From: Camillea tinctor
Taxonomy: Eukaryota; Ascomycota; Sordariomycetes; Xylariales; Xylariaceae
Assembly: GCA_022578605.1 (NCBI GenBank)
Contig: MU394127.1
Coordinates: forward strand, 124,001 to 188,000
Direction of reading: 5' to 3'
Length of the DNA stretch: 64,000 nucleotides
Below, in pieces: positions 20,929 to 30,733 of this stretch; positions within the stretch are counted from its first letter, which is position 1; each line of letters starts with the position of its first letter. The translations under genes were made by a program, and so were the position numbers. The notes under the pieces are model-generated. The model made no database searches and was not told where the DNA came from. It saw nothing but the letters and a program-made list of their open reading frames with translations.

Positions 20929-23750
20929 AGTGGCTATCGTTTTCTATTTAGGTGTTAGCGTGTTGGGTCTCTTTTTTCTTCTTCTCTCTGATAACTACGG
21001 CGGGATATCATTCATGCTTTGTACCAAATGGATCTGATCTTTCAGGATGGCGGGTTGTATGTCGAAGCGACTACCGGTCGCAATCTCTTGTCATCATTTC
21101 CCCCTCTATCTAGGGTAAATCAACTCATGCATAATTGTTCTAACCCTTATCTTTAGTAGTCGGCGCCGTTCAGTGTATTGTGTTAGTTGTCATCACCTTT
21201 CTACTCTGCGAACTCTGCTATTGTCTTCAAGTAAAGAAACTCACTGGGATTAGCTAGTATGGAAAGGGCCCTCTTCTTCAGATAAAGTAAACACTAAATC
21301 TCTGTGGGCAAGTAAATAATTTATCTGACTTTGTACTGCTTGTCCAAATACCCGAGAACGAGCGAATCCGATCAACGTTGTTAGAGATGACAGCAAGATA
21401 TCTTCGACGAACAAGTCTCTTAAGGACATAGCCGCGCGGTTGGCTCCAGCCGGTTTATCATAATACATACTTCAGCTATCACAGTCTCCTGCAAAAAAGC
21501 TATGGGAATTTTCATATGCTTCAATAACACACCGAATGCACTCAGCTCTCCCGCCGGAGTATGCTCTAAAATTCAATTCCTAGATATCGTACATATTTCT
21601 TCAAGTCTAACCGCATCTTTATATATCAATACCTTTAAAGCACGTAGACAGTCGCTCTGACAACCCTAGAGTCAGGTTCTGGGGAGCATTAAGTAATCGT
21701 TACGGATACGAAGCTAGGTATCAAAAAAGATCGCTTGAGATCATTATGAGCATGTATAAGCTAACCAAACACTGTACAAGGGGCGATATATATGATTGGG
21801 TATATGTGATGTTTGACTAGGGCTTGATTTATATTAACTTGGGACACCTGCGCTGCGAACCTGTTCGAGGAGTCTTAAGCAAAAATATGACTACGAAGGT
21901 AATTATCGCGAGCAACTGTAATATGAGAAACCTCTTCCTGTCGACGTACTGCTTGCATCCTTCCTACTAGTTCTCAAAGTTGTTACACGTGTGATCTCAT
22001 CCTCGGATAGCCTTTCGTAATAAGGCGCCATCCCTCATGTGACTTATATCAAGAGGTTATCGTTCCTCTCTACACCGAGTCAGGAAAATATTCTCTTTAT
22101 ACAGGATTCAAGTCGTACCACCCTATGTAAGCATTGGTGGCCCGGTGAAAGAGAATATTCATCAACTGATAACTCAGTGTGTAATGGCTTCTAGTTTCCG
22201 GGTATTGGTGTGGGGGCTGGGGGAACCAGGAACCGTGGCCTAGTGTATATATAAGGCGTCACTTTACGATAGACGGAGTTTTGCTTTTGCTTCTTCAGTA
22301 GTAGGCGGCAATAACGAAGATTAATAAATTTCCTTGCCTTGGCTTCATCTAATTATATGCTCTTCATACACCTAAATAGTATGATGGTTGGGGGTCGTGA
22401 ACTGAAGATAGGTTTCAGTCACTCACACCCTCATACAACGGATGGCAGGGGGTATCCTCCATCCCTAGCATGGTATACATTATGGCTCTCTACGTACTTA
22501 GCTCATGCGTTGCTATGAAGAATACAGAACAACCCATCCTTATTGTAGTATCATGTATGTTTAATAGGGTTAGGCTAGGTATAAGTCACCGTGAATTGCA
22601 GTTTGCTATAAAGTATTTAGTCCGGACATTAATCTAGGATAATATGACAGGTAGCTGGGGATCGGGGCATCAATAGATATGTGAGTAGATCTCAACATGA
22701 ATTCGTAGCACTGGACGAGAACATAAAATTTTGCTTAGGGAACTGGGACTTTTGTTTTGCAACTCGAGCCCTTCACGCCAAACAAATCATATCCCGAGGG
22801 AAGCAGCACCTTGAAGATTAACCTTCAGGTTAGGGGGCCAGAGTCCGAAGGATCAGCAAACGTGAATTTTCTTTTCTCTCTCTTTAACACGTGCTTCGTA
22901 GAGGCATGCTTTGTTTTAGAAGTAAATGTCTATCCTCATGGTGTTGGGCAGCGATCAAATCCCTTAAACAAGGGGAAAGGTTCCCTAACAAAAGCTGCAA
23001 TACGGGGCCAAGTGTAGGAGATATAAACGAAATAGAGGATACTCTGGTGTTATTTTGCCAAGAAATTATTGGTAGCTATTTCTAATAATTGGACCATATG
23101 CACAGTACTATTTTCCCCTTCTGCATTCAGCCATGTGCTTCGGAAATAAAGAACACAGCATGTTGGGACCGACTCATGGACTCACAGTATGTTCATCACT
23201 AGGGAGTTTAAACTTATTGCAGAGTTAAGTATATATATGAGTTAGATATTCTGCTCCTTATTGTTATGAGCCCCTGGTGCCCTCCTGTGTTCACGCAAAA
23301 AGAAAATATATTTAGCTCTGATAATGCAACCGAGGGCGCCACTATATGGGATATGATATTAGCGATCATACCCAAGGTATTGTATACAATATTTGAGTAA
23401 CCTGTGATTTCAGCAAGGTCATGGGATTGGAGTCATTCATACGTATACACGTCGTAATATGAACGTGATGGACGTAGTGATGACGTGAATAGATAATGTA
23501 CCCACTATAGCTGTGATATAAACACAACCAGGTATGCTATACCCTTTGCCCACGCATGTCAGGTGTGTACAGGTGCCTTGAAGCTGATGCAGTTGACTCG
23601 AAGGAATTGTCTATCACTTTAAATACCACCCAAGCCCCCATGACTATCTTGTTGTTCTCTCCGACACACGGCTTCTCTACATACACCCATCGAGCCAGAC
23701 AGAGAGTAGAGAGTTCGCAATTTCAGAATCATTTCAGAATTACGGCTGAC
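20929..23750. other. AT-rich intergenic stretch, no supportable gene
   Basis: Nearly 2.8 kb without a convincing coding region. A 72-codon frame on the minus strand (21250-21468) reads smoothly but matches nothing I know. It could be a fragment of a lost gene. Confidence 0.5.
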
Positions 23751-24977
23751 ATGGAGAGTCTCCCACCAGAGCTAGTACACCCGATCTTGGAGACATGCAT
23801 TATCGACGATGTCTTCAACCTCAGGCTAGTCTCACGCTCGTTCTTGGCCTGGATCGATTACTATCTTTCGACGGTTGCTTACCAAATAGCCCGCAACACA
23901 TTTCCCAAAGCACGTCTTATACTCAGACCTACACACGAAGGCGTCTACGATTTAGCATGGTTGCGCACATTGGTCCCTCGACGCCTAGCCTCGATTGTAT
24001 TAGACAAGGACGCGAGGAGACCGGATGACCCCACCAATACGATGCGATATCGGATCCCGTCCGAAGATGGCTCCGGCGATCTATTACGGAAACGGGTATC
24101 AGGCGCATGGTGCTTGATCAAGCGAATCGGAACAATTTACAAAGACGTATATGCCCTTCCTCTTGACGCAGGTGCTTCCCTGTCGGACAGGGAAGAGATG
24201 GTCTATGAGCGTGTTTTGTTCATGATCAAGAGCCTGGAGCCGCACGAGTGCGAGGCCTTTTTTATCTTGGCGTATGTGCTCCTCTCGGCTTTCCATGATG
24301 AGAACTGCCGTCTGCGACGGTGGCGTTATTATTTGGAAAACTCCCAATACAAAGCCAGCGACGGGTTTTGCTTCTTCGACTGCAGGGCTCGGCATCCGCC
24401 TTCACCGAAGTCCGAACTTGGAGCGGAATCAACAGGCGAGGTTTCTGACCACCCGAGGCATCCAGACCACGGCAACTCTTGGATTTGGTCTTGGATATTT
24501 CGCGAGGGGGCAGATGCTTTCTGGAAACAATGGGGACTAGGCGCGCTGCGGCTCGAGCCCGAGAACTATGTTGCCTTGAAGCTACAGGATGCATGGTCTC
24601 AACGTTCAGAAGCTCAAGTTCATATTGAAAGGGAGACATCAGCTCGAATCTGGTGCGCTCTTATGGAGCGTTCGAAAGCACGCGATCCGCAGTCGTTAAC
24701 TTCCCCGAGCTATAACTCTTTGATGAATCCGAGCAATGATATATTTGTTAATATGCTGAGCTACGTATATTTCAAGCGAGAACAAGGGATCCCCAAGATG
24801 AATACGGATCTTCACGAATGGTATCTCTGGCAAGACGGCAAAATCTCAATTGATGAGACGCTGAGCAATCTTACCTTAACTGAAGGGAGAGGTCGTGAAA
24901 CCCGAAGATATTATAGTAGTCCGGATTCAATACCGGACGTTCCTTACATTGTCTCTTTCAAGACATTTCATACCTAG
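23751..24977 (+). CDS. F-box-like protein, 408 aa
   Basis: The N-terminus (MESLPPELVHPILETC, then FNLRLVSRSF) is a typical F-box, the Skp1-binding module of SCF ubiquitin ligases. The remaining 350 residues are a fungal-type region with no repeat or fold I recognise, presumably the substrate-binding part. The frame is intronless. It is open 65 codons further upstream to 23556, but the F-box normally sits at the very N-terminus, so the ATG at 23751 is preferred. The gene is isolated in AT-rich sequence and lies about 1.3 kb upstream of the motif-bearing patatin gene. Rapidly evolving F-box proteins of this kind are common in fungal accessory regions. Confidence 0.75.
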   Translation: MESLPPELVHPILETCIIDDVFNLRLVSRSFLAWIDYYLSTVAYQIARNTFPKARLILRPTHEGVYDLAWLRTLVPRRLASIVLDKDARRPDDPTNTMRYRIPSEDGSGDLLRKRVSGAWCLIKRIGTIYKDVYALPLDAGASLSDREEMVYERVLFMIKSLEPHECEAFFILAYVLLSAFHDENCRLRRWRYYLENSQYKASDGFCFFDCRARHPPSPKSELGAESTGEVSDHPRHPDHGNSWIWSWIFREGADAFWKQWGLGALRLEPENYVALKLQDAWSQRSEAQVHIERETSARIWCALMERSKARDPQSLTSPSYNSLMNPSNDIFVNMLSYVYFKREQGIPKMNTDLHEWYLWQDGKISIDETLSNLTLTEGRGRETRRYYSSPDSIPDVPYIVSFKTFHT

Positions 24978-26307: not shown

Positions 26308-27689
26308 ATGGCATCTTCAATAAAAATACTATCACTTGGCAAGTTTTCCTTTGCAGCAATATTGTTTCCTCATACTAACGACATTAGATGGAGGTGGTGT
26401 CCGCGGAATATCAAGTCTCCAAATACTTCAGGATCTTATGGAAAGAATTAAGGTGGCGAAAGGTCTTACCGAAGTACCTCGACCATGTGAAATTTTTGAC
26501 ATTATTGGCGGAACTAGTACTGGGGGGTGAGTCATTTTGACCCTATTTTTACTTACATACGCTAACTTGATACGAAGTATTATGGCAATAATGCTAGGAA
26601 GGTTGGGAATGGCCGTGGATGAATGCATCACAGTATATAGACAAGTGGCTAGAAGAGCCTTTACTCCGAAGATACGATTCCCGTTCCCGTGCTCCCCCGG
26701 AGGAGCTTACTCGGCAAAGGCCCTCGAGATGGCAATAAAAGAGGTGATAAAAGCTCAGTGCAAAGAATCTCCATGCAAAGCCAAGAACGAATGTTCACAT
26801 GAAGATATGCCATTTCGGGACAGTACCTGCGTAAAGACGTGTGTTTGAAAATCCTGATATTTCACGCATCTAATAACTGACACATTATAGCATTGTCCTA
26901 GCAATGACCAAGGAGAATGTCGATGCAATGCCTACACTTTTCAGAACATTCGATAACATGTCAAGGTTTCACGATTGCACGATCTGGGAAGTTGCACGGG
27001 CGACATCGGCTGCTACGACATTCTTTAAGTCTGTTAAATGTGGCCGTGATCGCATCGAATTTGTCGATGCTGCTTTTGGGTTTAATAACCCCTGCGAGGT
27101 GCTCATCAAGGAAGCCAGAAAACAATTTCCCCAGGCATCTATAGAGCAGTTCCGTATCCTTAGCATCGGCACCGGTCTTGGTGAAGTTGTAACCATCCAA
27201 GACACCAGGACTTCCATACTAAGGGCACTTAAGTCCATTGCGACTACCTCAAAGAAGGTAGCAGACAGGCTTGATGAAGAGTATGCGGACACGCACAAGT
27301 ACTACCGCCTCAACGTCGACCGTGGGCTTGAAGATGTTACACTTGCAGACTGGGAGAAATCTAGTAAGATATCAGCACACACATTCAACTACCTCCAAGA
27401 AAAAGAAAGGTATATTGCCGAATGTGTGAAAAATGTCTTTGTTGCCAATGATGAAACGGAGTATGTTCCTGGCGAGGAAACCCGTGTGTCTTCGCCTACG
27501 GCTGGGCGGAAATACGGTAGGGACAACCCGAATCTATTCGAACACCAGCTTCTTATACGCCAAAATATGGCCTCGAAAAATGCTGAACAGCATAATAGCA
27601 TAATATTCCTCGGGCCGTGCAGAACAGCTGGAATACATGACAATTCTTGTTCAGAAGAAGGTAGGCAGTGGAATTCCATAAGCGCCTAA
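26308..27689 (+). CDS. Patatin-like phospholipase with two C-terminal N-x-A-x3-A-x-Q-x-N repeats
   Basis: Probable lipid acyl hydrolase. Four exons (26308-26338, 26388-26526, 26578-26838, 26891-27689) give 409 aa. The first intron appears to use a GC donor (GCAAGT) with branch ACTAAC; only this joining yields the patatin entry motif ILSLDGGGVRG. Catalytic elements are the oxyanion loop DGGGVRG (11-17), nucleophile GTSTG (Ser54) and the dyad Asp in FVDAAFGFNNP (Asp203). The last has D-A-A where D-G-A/G is usual. IVLAMTKENVDAMPTLFRTF matches the family core. After about residue 365 the domain ends and two repeats follow: NMASKNAEQHNSI (369-381) and NSCSEEGRQWNSI (395-407). These resemble the motifs in the two following genes. 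Many fungal homologues continue into NB-ARC/TPR; this one stops, so truncation of a longer gene is possible. Confidence 0.85.
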
Positions 27690-28008
27690 AAGAATCATGT
27701 AAACGAAATAAATTGGTACATAGTGTGGTTACATTTCGCGATTGAGTCGAAGAGGAGAATGTTATACAGGAGGTTTATCATTGCAGCCCTAGTAAAAGAA
27801 GTTGTACATAGGAACTATTGGTTACAATATTTTTTAGAGTTCTAAACGAGGCCATCTATTCGTCCAAAAATATATAATCCATCCTATCCAAATGTTTGAA
27901 CCGGCTCTTGACAGAGTGAATGTATCCCTGGTACTCGTGTGTTCGCAGACAGGTTGGAATCAGAAAAGGGGGGAATGTGGAGCAACATGGTCGTGGTTGT
28001 AATAGTGT
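27690..28008. other. Convergent 3' region
   Basis: 319 bp between the convergent 3' ends of the patatin-like gene and the small CaaX protein gene. Nothing else seen. Confidence 0.6.
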
Positions 28009-28433
28009 TTAGAGAATGATGCATGCTGAATTTCGTTGGGTGGCACCTATGGCTCTGTTGTCTCCAACATGCCCCTGAGCTGTTGCAGTATTATATTGCT
28101 TAGCACCACCCTCAGCAACATTGCGTACAACCCTTGCTGTTGTGCCATGATCACCATCGCTGAAAGGTACTTGAGGCGTTTTGGTATATACAAGTGTCGA
28201 ATCTCTCCGATTAACGTCTGGTGATGAGCTATAAACCACTAGCTGAGAATTGCCAGTAGGTTCCCCAGAAATGTTCGGTAAAAGGTTTTGGTGACCAGGT
28301 CTTGGCTCCAAAATCCCACTCCGCGCTTAGGATGCGTGCCTGTTAGCTAGGACTGATGTCTATATTACACGCATCTAATGGCAGGGGGGAATAACTAAAA
28401 AAAAAAATAGTACTTACTTCTCCTTTGCGACAT
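28009..28433 (-). CDS. Small protein with two amyloid-motif-like repeats and C-terminal CaaX box
   Basis: Two exons (28433-28418 and 28325-28009) join in frame to 110 aa. The intron is 92 nt with GTAAGT donor, GCTAAC branch and TAAG acceptor. The first CAG after the branch is too close to it to be used. No known domain is present. Residues 1-70 are polar and probably disordered. Then come two pseudo-repeats: NVAEGGAKQYN (74-84) and NRAIGATQRN (95-104), 21 residues apart. The protein ends in CIIL, a textbook CaaX prenylation box whose Leu favours geranylgeranylation, so it may be membrane-anchored. It is convergent with the patatin-like gene and divergent from the next gene; both carry the same motif. 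No relative is known to me. The splice model, not the coding of the repeats, is the weaker part. Confidence 0.6.
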
Positions 28434-29775
28434 GATGTATATGGCCAGAATGGGTCTGTGCGATAATTTATAGTCCCTAACGGTTTCAAAGTTGTCTATC
28501 ATAAAACAAAGAGGCAAGGGCAACAAGGTTCAGCATGTCATTATATATATGAGTTAGATTGATAAAAGAGCCTTCATAGATTGGACGAGAAATGAGGCTC
28601 AAAATTACATGACAGTGTTCACATTGTTTTGATAATGGAAGTTAAAAAAAAGATAATTTTGCCAGCAGTTATCTTGCCTGCATCAAGCTCGAGGTAGGCA
28701 ACCGAAAATCCGTCAAGAGGGTATCCTGGGAAGAGCCTATAACCTTCAGGGGACCGCGATCTAAGATCAAGTTTCTCATTCATTTGCACTCAGGTTGGGC
28801 GAGCAAATATGCATCTACTAATTATCAAGGCTATTCTACGATATGAGTTACCCAACAGGAAGGGAAATAATTCGTTGCATAGTACCATGTGTTGGCAGCA
28901 CTAACCATAGTTGGCCATAGAGAGTTAATTAACATTGCTACTTGTCTGTATCCTATCTCGAAGGGGCCTTAAGCCTCAAAAATTTTTTACCCTGCTGACG
29001 ACTCTCGGTGAGAAGAACTGTACATAGGTAGGCAGTAATAGCTAGCCACTCGGCGCTTGATACCCGAATAGACTGTAATTTCCCTTGCAAGATAATAGAC
29101 CTGCAGCCTAGTTGAGGCTCTCATCAAAATTATGTGAGCATACGTACACTACAACATGTAGTGCTGTTACAAACACGTAATGTTAGGTATGAATATAACT
29201 GCACATAAGGTATGTATGCTGATATCTGCAGTCATAGTATGTCCTTGAGTGTTAGTATGCGTATGATCCTACAGAAGCAGGCGGAAACCAAAGCCTTGCG
29301 GTATAAAGCACGGTAGTACTCCCTCTAAAAGTGGCATTGTAGTTGTTAAGGACGTACATCCCGCTATCTCCTAGTACAAAGGAGAGAAAATGTATATGGT
29401 TAATTGTACTTGCTGATCTGCTTACACCACAACCCCTGTCTGTACTCGAGGCTTGTATCTCGATACGACCCTAAGTAGGGCTTGAAGCAGCAGCCCTGAT
29501 CCAGGAGTCAGTCATAACCTTGTACAACTTTAATGCTCAATTTTATTCTTACGATGGGCTTGAAACATATCCAACATATCGGTGTTGGGTACCAATCGGT
29601 ATTGAAAGCAACTTTTATTCACAAGTGCTTTCAAAATTAGAGCATAAAACTTTTTTGTTGAGAATAGTTAAAGTGAGTCACTCATGCCAGGACATCCTTA
29701 TGGATGAAAAGTGCTCGCTCAGGTTTCATGCTATTTAACTGCTATTCAAAAACCAATATTTGACTCCTTAACGAT
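28434..29775. promoter_or_regulatory. Divergent intergenic region between two motif-bearing genes
   Basis: About 1.3 kb between two divergent start codons. It is AT-rich, with no coding region seen. It should hold the promoters of both genes and may allow shared control, but no specific site is recognised. Confidence 0.45.
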
Positions 29776-30733
29776 ATGGCTCATCATAATTACGCCACTG
29801 GGGGCGCCTCCCAAAACAACTTTGGTATTCAGATCAATCGCACAAAACATTATAGTTTTAGTCTTGTATCCATGATTGGGACAGGGGGAAATAACGCTTC
29901 ACACATACGACTCTTCGACTTTGCACTGCAAGGTCCTGCCCAAACTCCTAGGGACGGTCATATCAATCGAAGACGACATAGCTGCAAGGCTACAGATGGG
30001 GAGGTAGCAAAAATGGTTGAAATGATAGAGAGCGGGATTGTAACCAGAGACGTCGAGAGGAACGGCCCATGTACCAATACCCAGAGGGGAACTCCCGGCA
30101 TCCTGGATGGGCAAACAGTGGAAAACATAGATATTGCTAAGAGCTGGGTTGAGAAGTACACTTATGTCATTCATAGTCAATATAGAACACCCAGGCAGCT
30201 AAATGATGCAAAAACCAGAATACAGAAGATGACCAAGAAAGAGTTTCCTTGTTTCGGCAACACACTGTCCATCATGTCTCGGTCATCATATGATGAGGAT
30301 GATCTCGCAAGGTCCATGTCAATTCTCTTGTTCGCTCGAGCTGGCCGAGAAAAACTGTACACCAGATCAACCAAACTTTTATCGCTTGCGCTTCTGCTGT
30401 CTGGTTGGGGGTGGGACATCGACATTTACATTGAAAACGACAATAGAGAGATGGTACACCTCAAAACCGGGACTGGCGCTATACGTGTAATCTACACGTA
30501 TCACCAAGGCCCCTAGCAACAGCTTAGGTCGTCACGAAGCTGTTGTTCAAGAGACTAGGACTACAACTACTTGTGATTCCGTTACTTTTATATCGAACAC
30601 TCTCTTTGTTTTCTCACGAGGTACGCATTACCTTGGACATAGTGATCTAGCAGACCCCCCTGACAATACTACTCGCAGCTATTACGAAGATCGGGATGAG
30701 ATGCAGTGGGGCTTCAAAATAACGAACTATTAA
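29776..30733 (+). CDS. Unknown protein with N-terminal N-x-A-x-G-G-A-x-Q-x-N motif
   Basis: Not recognised as any known family. The N-terminus carries NYATGGASQNN (residues 5-15), matching the C-terminal motif NVAEGGAKQYN of the divergent neighbour at every defined position. An unplaced globular-looking region follows, partly hydrophobic near residues 195-215. The first frame closes at 30516 (246 aa). A short intron, 30485-30527 (43 nt, GTGTAA..TTAG), joins in frame to a further 68-codon segment ending at 30733, giving 304 aa. That segment reads like protein, so I prefer the longer model, but the branch site is weak. A frameshift or a genuine stop at 30516 are the alternatives. A receptor-like role is suggested only by motif position; no NACHT, NB-ARC or repeat domain is visible. 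Confidence 0.5.

Follow-up and report, generated by a model that had tools for sequence, protein, structure and literature searches.

Introduction

In the known fungal amyloid signalosomes the receptor carries one N-terminal copy of a short motif (PMC12881547) and HET-S carries two C-terminal copies (PMC4518210), as far as the accessible sections of the two sources go; the HET-S motif is about 21 residues long (PMC4518210). Here we report on 64,000 nucleotides of the genome of Camillea tinctor, a wood-inhabiting fungus of the Xylariales (GenBank assembly GCA_022578605.1, contig MU394127.1, positions 124,001 to 188,000, forward strand), referred to below as the window, in which three neighbouring genes, here called A, B and C, share an 11-residue motif. 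The genome comprises 44.7 Mb in 154 contigs; the window lies on the contig labelled C77, and the other contigs mentioned are labelled C1, C89, C70 and C3. Judged by the shared motif, the layout of its copies, a gene order repeated on another contig and a patatin domain, the three genes probably form a relative of the fungal amyloid signalosomes.

The locus has features in common with several described systems. Like HET-S/NWD2, it combines one N-terminal receptor copy with two C-terminal pseudo-repeats of the kind carried by a HeLo-type effector (PMC4518210). A short Q-centred motif, and one receptor served by two effectors including a lipase, are also features of the PP (PNT1/HELLP/SBP) and RHIM systems, according to the available part of PMC5485727. 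PUASM and GDQN motifs are likewise found at the N-terminus of NOD-like receptors (NLRs) and at the C-terminus of effectors, GDQN being paired with SesA (PMC9815663, PMC12261475). The sigma loci (sesA/sesB/het-eN), as presented in the accessible excerpts of PMC3321046, are similar in being three-gene clusters with a NACHT-type partner and with SesA-type and lipase effectors, and in having a motif with a Q/N/G core that is N-terminal in one gene and C-terminal in the others. In contrast to the sigma loci, the motif described here occurs as single units with an added N-x-A start, spaced 21-29 residues apart; a patatin takes the place of the SesB alpha/beta hydrolase, one partner has a CaaX box, and the receptor-like family lacks a nucleoside triphosphatase (NTPase) signature.

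In patatin-NLRs of the PLP-1 type, patatin serves as the effector domain, as it probably does in the two nearest paralogues of gene A, whereas A itself is free-standing and carries C-terminal motif copies. The patatin of PLP-1 has been reported as necessary for cell death in the available part of PMC10197012. In the sections of a 2017 review at hand, the two-gene form is said not to have been found for patatin associations (PMC5485727), and a 2022 survey had patatin among its effector queries, the word occurring twice in the accessible text and neither time with a motif (PMC9815663). A 2021 commentary asks, in the part available, whether signalling amyloids exist in fungal or bacterial pathways independent of NLRs (PMC7889193). 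The cluster supplies concrete sequences both for this question and for the two-gene patatin form.

Results

One motif in three adjacent genes

An earlier note, made from the letters of the window, had proposed a candidate amyloid-type signalling cluster with five motif copies. All five were located as it described, two in A, two in B and one in C, and gene B does end in CIIL followed by a stop, in agreement with the CaaX box that the note had assigned to one partner. The patatin-like gene, the small gene and the third gene that it listed are all present and neighbour each other; it was silent on the minus strand of B, and its third gene proved to be a truncated relative of a family of mostly 722-793 amino acids (aa). 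The form common to the genes A, B and C is N-x-A-x-x-G-A-x-Q-x-N. The features are as follows.

26308..27689, plus strand: gene A, patatin-like, 409 aa (splice model, Pfam Patatin, structural matches)
26308-26338, 26388-26526, 26578-26838 and 26891-27689, plus strand: exons of gene A (splice model)
27564-27596, plus strand: A motif copy 1, NMASKNAEQHN (sequence, matrix scan)
27642-27674, plus strand: A motif copy 2, NSCSEEGRQWN, 26 residues after copy 1 (sequence, relaxed pattern)
28009..28433, minus strand: gene B, small protein ending in CIIL, last exon ending at 28009 (predicted from sequence only)
28090..28122, minus strand: B motif copy 1, NVAEGGAKQYN (sequence, matrix scan)
28030..28059, minus strand: B motif copy 2, NRAIGATQRN, one residue shorter, 21 residues after copy 1
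28012..28023, minus strand: C-terminal CIIL of B, CaaX-like (sequence; putative prenylation site)
29776..30516, plus strand: gene C, 246 aa, truncated relative of the C family (homology, open frame)
29788..29820, plus strand: N-terminal motif copy of C, NYATGGASQNN, from residue 5 after the ATG at 29776

Recurrence of the motif on contigs C1 and C89

The single paralogue of C in the genome lies on contig C1 (37% identity over 125 residues, E 2.6e-18). It is a 758-aa open frame that starts with MAYNNTAKSGATQYN, and its product, referred to as the C1 protein, is 100% identical to Camillea tinctor F4810DRAFT_643865. Divergently oriented and 1.27 kb away lies a gene, B' (L011 1343-1786, plus strand, with a proposed 45-bp intron), whose tail, NVSLSGAYQANTAVGPMKVAR-NWAHGKGTAQHN-TSWCVIL, parallels that of B in its two copies, spaced by 21 residues, and its CaaX box. 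Outside this tail, the alignment of B with B' revealed no clear homology. A 252-aa open frame, E1, stands tail to tail with B', carries two motif copies 29 residues apart and occupies the place of the patatin. A genome search with PF22215 returned only E1, below the cut-off. Order and orientation are equal at C1 and in the window, with the effector gene and the CaaX gene converging and C, or its paralogue, pointing away.

The locus on contig C89 was retrieved as the site of an E1 paralogue, independently of the motif, and is the sole other genome match of E1 (41% identity, with two stops within the matched stretch). There, the 249-aa open frame E89 has the C-terminal copies NKIFGSAHQLN and NQATGMARQQN, 29 residues apart; E1 and E89 are 37% identical over their alignment, in which the N, Q and N of both copies are in register. 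About 5 kb from E89 lies a receptor-like gene that starts with MPLEIQGGYEISGNCASGQASQNNF and has one N-terminal copy. By a proposed splice it runs into an NPHP3_N (NACHT-type) domain, which scored 22.9 bits with the exon alone and 24.9 bits with the joined protein against a cut-off of 24.8. This gene may be a short or decayed NLR, and a genome search with its exon recovered only itself. Its combination of motif and NACHT-type domain links the motif to receptors of the classical kind.

Collectively, each of the three receptor-like proteins (C, the C1 protein and the C89 gene product) bears a single N-terminal copy and each of the five partners (A, B, B', E1 and E89) bears two C-terminal copies, which is the layout of fungal amyloid signalosomes. 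The earlier note had read this layout from the window; it extends to C1 and C89.

Significance of the motif matches

A matrix was derived from the motif of 11 of the 17 C-family N-termini, with no window sequence included; five members without the motif and P0016, which has a longer form, were left out. In a scan of 114,485 six-frame positions (the window plus L010-L014, 108 kb) the C1 paralogue, the profile's own source, ranked first, followed at ranks 2-5 by B copy 1, C, B' copy 1 and A copy 1. When L019-L022 were added (149,517 positions; 145 kb of the genome, covered by all motif controls), ranks 2-7 were taken by B, C, the C89 receptor-like gene, B', A and E89.

We also scored the last 60 residues of the 218 closed open reading frames (ORFs) of at least 100 aa in the 145 kb. 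At the top of the 218 tails stood B (26.6), B' (15.3), A (13.1) and E89 (12.4); the next tail scored 5.5, and E1 was eighth (4.8). After shuffling of each tail within its own composition, the observed score was reached in 0 (B), 5 (B') and 28 (E89) of 5000 trials. A relaxed pattern, fitted post hoc, gave 14 matches in 276,238 six-frame residues, 13 of them module copies, and occurred in 5 of the 218 tails, each of which holds exactly two.

A chance resemblance of N-rich ends is highly improbable in view of these figures. The motif is short, and A taken alone is modest, its score being reached by 7 of 5000 shuffles; nevertheless, the top four tails were picked by an independent matrix, none of 200 column-permuted matrices filled the top four places with module genes (five filled three of them), and the motif recurred at loci found by homology. 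When the genome was searched with the N-terminal 31 residues of the C1 protein, the C-terminal 40 of B or the whole of B', each query recovered only itself; since they missed each other's copies, such searches are insensitive and three loci are a lower bound. A profile search of PDB with two effectors produced one weak match, to dynein (E 0.033).

Genes A and B

The patatin domain of A was recognised by Pfam with E 5.4e-18, and the patatin hallmarks are present in its sequence, namely DGGGxRG, the GxSxG nucleophile (Ser54 in GTSTG) and the catalytic Asp (Asp203), from which lipase activity is predicted. Matches to proteins of known structure comprise 9 distinct sequences at E up to 0.01, with CapV phospholipases and patatin-17 among them. 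Intron 1 (26339-26387) has a GC-AG splice pair. Both motif copies lie beyond the patatin domain in a single open exon of 270 aa, which includes part of this domain too, so no splice guess stands behind them.

The nearest paralogues of this large exon are on contig C70 (39% identity) and on contig C3 (37%, with three stops within the match). Both adjoin NPHP3_N (NACHT-type) domains, followed on C70 by ankyrin repeats, and therefore resemble all-in-one patatin NLRs; they are likely to be putative NLRs of this kind within the same genome. Gene A looks like the effector domain of such an NLR, set free and equipped with motif copies.

Both copies of B lie within one 105-aa open frame without a Met, the last exon falling within 28326-28009 on the minus strand. 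A spliced upstream exon is therefore needed, and the 5' end is uncertain. One model starts at an ATG at 28433 and places an intron between 28417 and about 28239; another starts at an ATG at 28783, with further exons, and would need a GC donor (28677).

Gene C and its family

The homology of C ends at about 30498-30513 and is followed by a stop at 30514-30516. The earlier note had let the gene run to 30733; the frame 30491-30733 was matched in 0 of the 17 family members, and this end was discarded. Gene C covers only family residues 1 to about 276-291, and no significant match to the remainder was found within the window.

The family has 17 members, including the C1 protein; 15 are of 722-793 aa and two of 605 and 621 aa. 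Ten are assigned to a species or strain, namely Camillea, the other Xylariales Xylariaceae sp. FL0662B, Rostrohypoxylon terebratum, Daldinia decipiens, D. loculata, Hypoxylon rubiginosum and Hypoxylon sp. FL1284, as well as Fusarium oxysporum, Clonostachys rosea and C. byssicola. Placement of the motif is not random in them, as 12 of the 17 have it near the N-terminus (11 exact, P0016 in the longer form), in addition to its recurrence at C1 and C89. In place of the motif, members P0010 and P0012-P0015 have a short QLSVGSGVG-like or KLSIGFGVG-like stretch at their start, which, to judge by its sequence, may be another exchangeable N-terminal signal.

The reading of C as a degraded NLR was rejected, as none of the 17 members gave a Pfam match at E up to 0.01 and no Walker A was found in the family. 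This bears out the earlier note, which had held the third protein not to be an NLR, and the lack of an NTPase signature means that the trigger may be a non-NLR protein. The AlphaFold model of the C1 protein has a mean predicted local distance difference test (pLDDT) score of 62, with residues 1-88, the motif end, below 50. Foldseek with this poor model gave 0 PDB matches at E up to 0.001, and a model of such quality makes the absence of a match no evidence of a new fold.

Given that C is truncated in the window, A and B may answer to the longer C1 paralogue, or the locus may be decaying. That the window cluster is a decaying and now functionless copy of the C1 module is somewhat unlikely: the truncation of C, its divergence (33% identity to the C1 protein) and the unclear 5' end of B point that way, whereas the patatin domain and catalytic residues of A are intact, all five motif copies are kept in open frames and C is open over 246 codons.

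Comparison with published motifs

We compared 24 sequences with published consensuses. None matched the HET-s-related amyloid motif (HRAM; hydrophobic 5, 8, 10, 16, 18, G19), for which the pattern was our own rendering of the published text, nor the GLQLxG core of PP/RHIM (0/24). PUASM (FxGxGxQxxGxGxF) and GDQN (NxxxGxQYxxxGxGDQN) also gave 0/24 each, as did the sigma submotifs GxGxQFN and GGTQN, repeated three times. A genome search with PF11558 (HET-s) was empty, as was its control.

A loose core, G[GA]xQ[NYF], fits 11 of the 24 sequences, for example GATQN as against GGTQNINT of sigma B in the available text of PMC3321046, which makes a remote sigma tie the main alternative. The motif would then belong to a diverged member of the sigma family (SesA/SesB/HET-eN) with one unit per copy, and the C family would be an unusual partner in an otherwise known system. 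The SesA-like character of E89 is in line with this, SesA being the domain first tied to sigma. We consider such an origin unlikely, as the sigma A and B consensuses match none of the 24, the accessible part of PMC3321046 gives sigma as three repeats of two submotifs whereas single units 21-29 residues apart occur here, and a genome search with PF17106, whose control was weak, had no match at E up to 10.

The claim of an undescribed motif in the earlier note is thus sustained in that none of the published consensuses tried fits, and qualified by the sigma-like core; its interpretation as a whole is partly supported. No description of this combination of motif and genes was found in openly licensed PubMed Central text, in which the motif letters themselves were not searched, and the word CaaX does not occur in the available text of PMC7889193 or PMC12881547. 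An unassigned motif of the 2022 survey, such as NLR34, might be the present one. From the sequences, the motif and the gene combination appear to be new and the layout appears to be of the known fungal amyloid type; the most novel part would be the non-NLR trigger.

Proposed mechanism

For the probable signalosome we propose that the receptor-like protein would display its single N-terminal copy of the short N/Q/G-rich motif and that, once triggered, receptors would cluster and their N-terminal copies fold into a template. If the HET-S/NWD2, PP and sigma systems are taken as the model, the partners would then stack their paired C-terminal copies on this template. The membrane-attacking partner would be the patatin lipase in the window, the MLKL_N-like protein at C1 and the SesA-like protein at C89; at two loci the small CaaX protein, if prenylated, would hold the assembly at the membrane where the lipase or pore-former acts, and the outcome would be regulated cell death. 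We infer homotypic binding of the copies, their folding as amyloid, prenylation of the CaaX proteins, an active lipase and death of the cell, as well as the direction in which the signal runs.

Several observations weigh against this interpretation. Each of the three loci has at least one flawed or missing element. The window holds a truncated C and a B that depends on an unproven upstream exon. At C1, the search for B' homologues yielded none at E up to 1 among 32 candidates, the MLKL_N similarity of E1 is sub-threshold (E 1.1e-5, 25.4 bits against a cut-off of 27), and the motif score of E1 was reached by 674 of 5000 shuffles and is not significant taken alone, so that its assignment rests on homology to E89 with both copies in register. 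At C89, the two stops in the match lie upstream of the E89 open frame, the SesA similarity of E89 is likewise below threshold (E 0.0051, 17.4 bits against 26.3), and the receptor-like gene has a degenerate P-loop and ends after about 319 aa without repeats. In the C family the motif is lacking in 5 of the 17 members.

As the support for an amyloid fold comes from sequence alone, the tails could also form a genuine interaction motif that binds a common partner or pairs otherwise, without amyloid. We regard this as quite unlikely, since the placement of the copies, their number and the kinds of effector agree with amyloid signalosomes; in the C1 protein, the end that bears the motif was also modelled without confident structure, an outcome that a poor model may give as well.

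The signalosome reading has a bolder form, held tentatively and at somewhat less than even confidence, in which filamentous fungi would have amyloid-type death signalling triggered by something other than an NLR. The N-terminal template would be carried by a family of proteins of about 750 aa without a recognised domain; together with a prenylated adaptor of two repeats, which would tether the assembly to a membrane, this family would drive exchangeable killers (patatin at one locus, the MLKL_N-like protein at the other). As the motif is common to the C family and the NACHT-like C89 protein, the pathways could cross-talk. The analysis offers an 11-residue motif and, from Xylariales, Fusarium and Clonostachys, a family of receptor-like proteins that lack an NTPase signature. 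It also offers a free-standing patatin bearing two copies of the motif, and a CaaX protein that may be an adaptor anchored at a membrane. The occurrence of the tag beside likely cell-killing proteins at three loci suggests a new version of prion-like fungal death signalling.

Neighbouring genes

Upstream of A, an F-box gene occupies window positions 23517-24977 on the plus strand (F-box 21.3 bits, cut-off 20.5). At C1, about 6 kb beyond E1, there is an ORF with Pfam matches to Enterotoxin_a and to a Scabin-like domain of the ADP-ribosyltransferase type (L022:1043-1651). A gene for a DUF7025-AAA ATPase lies between E89 and the NACHT-like gene at C89 (L020:2503-4451). The next gene beyond C in the window, a long frame at 33957-32200 on the minus strand, is one that we take by eye to be acetolactate synthase-like.

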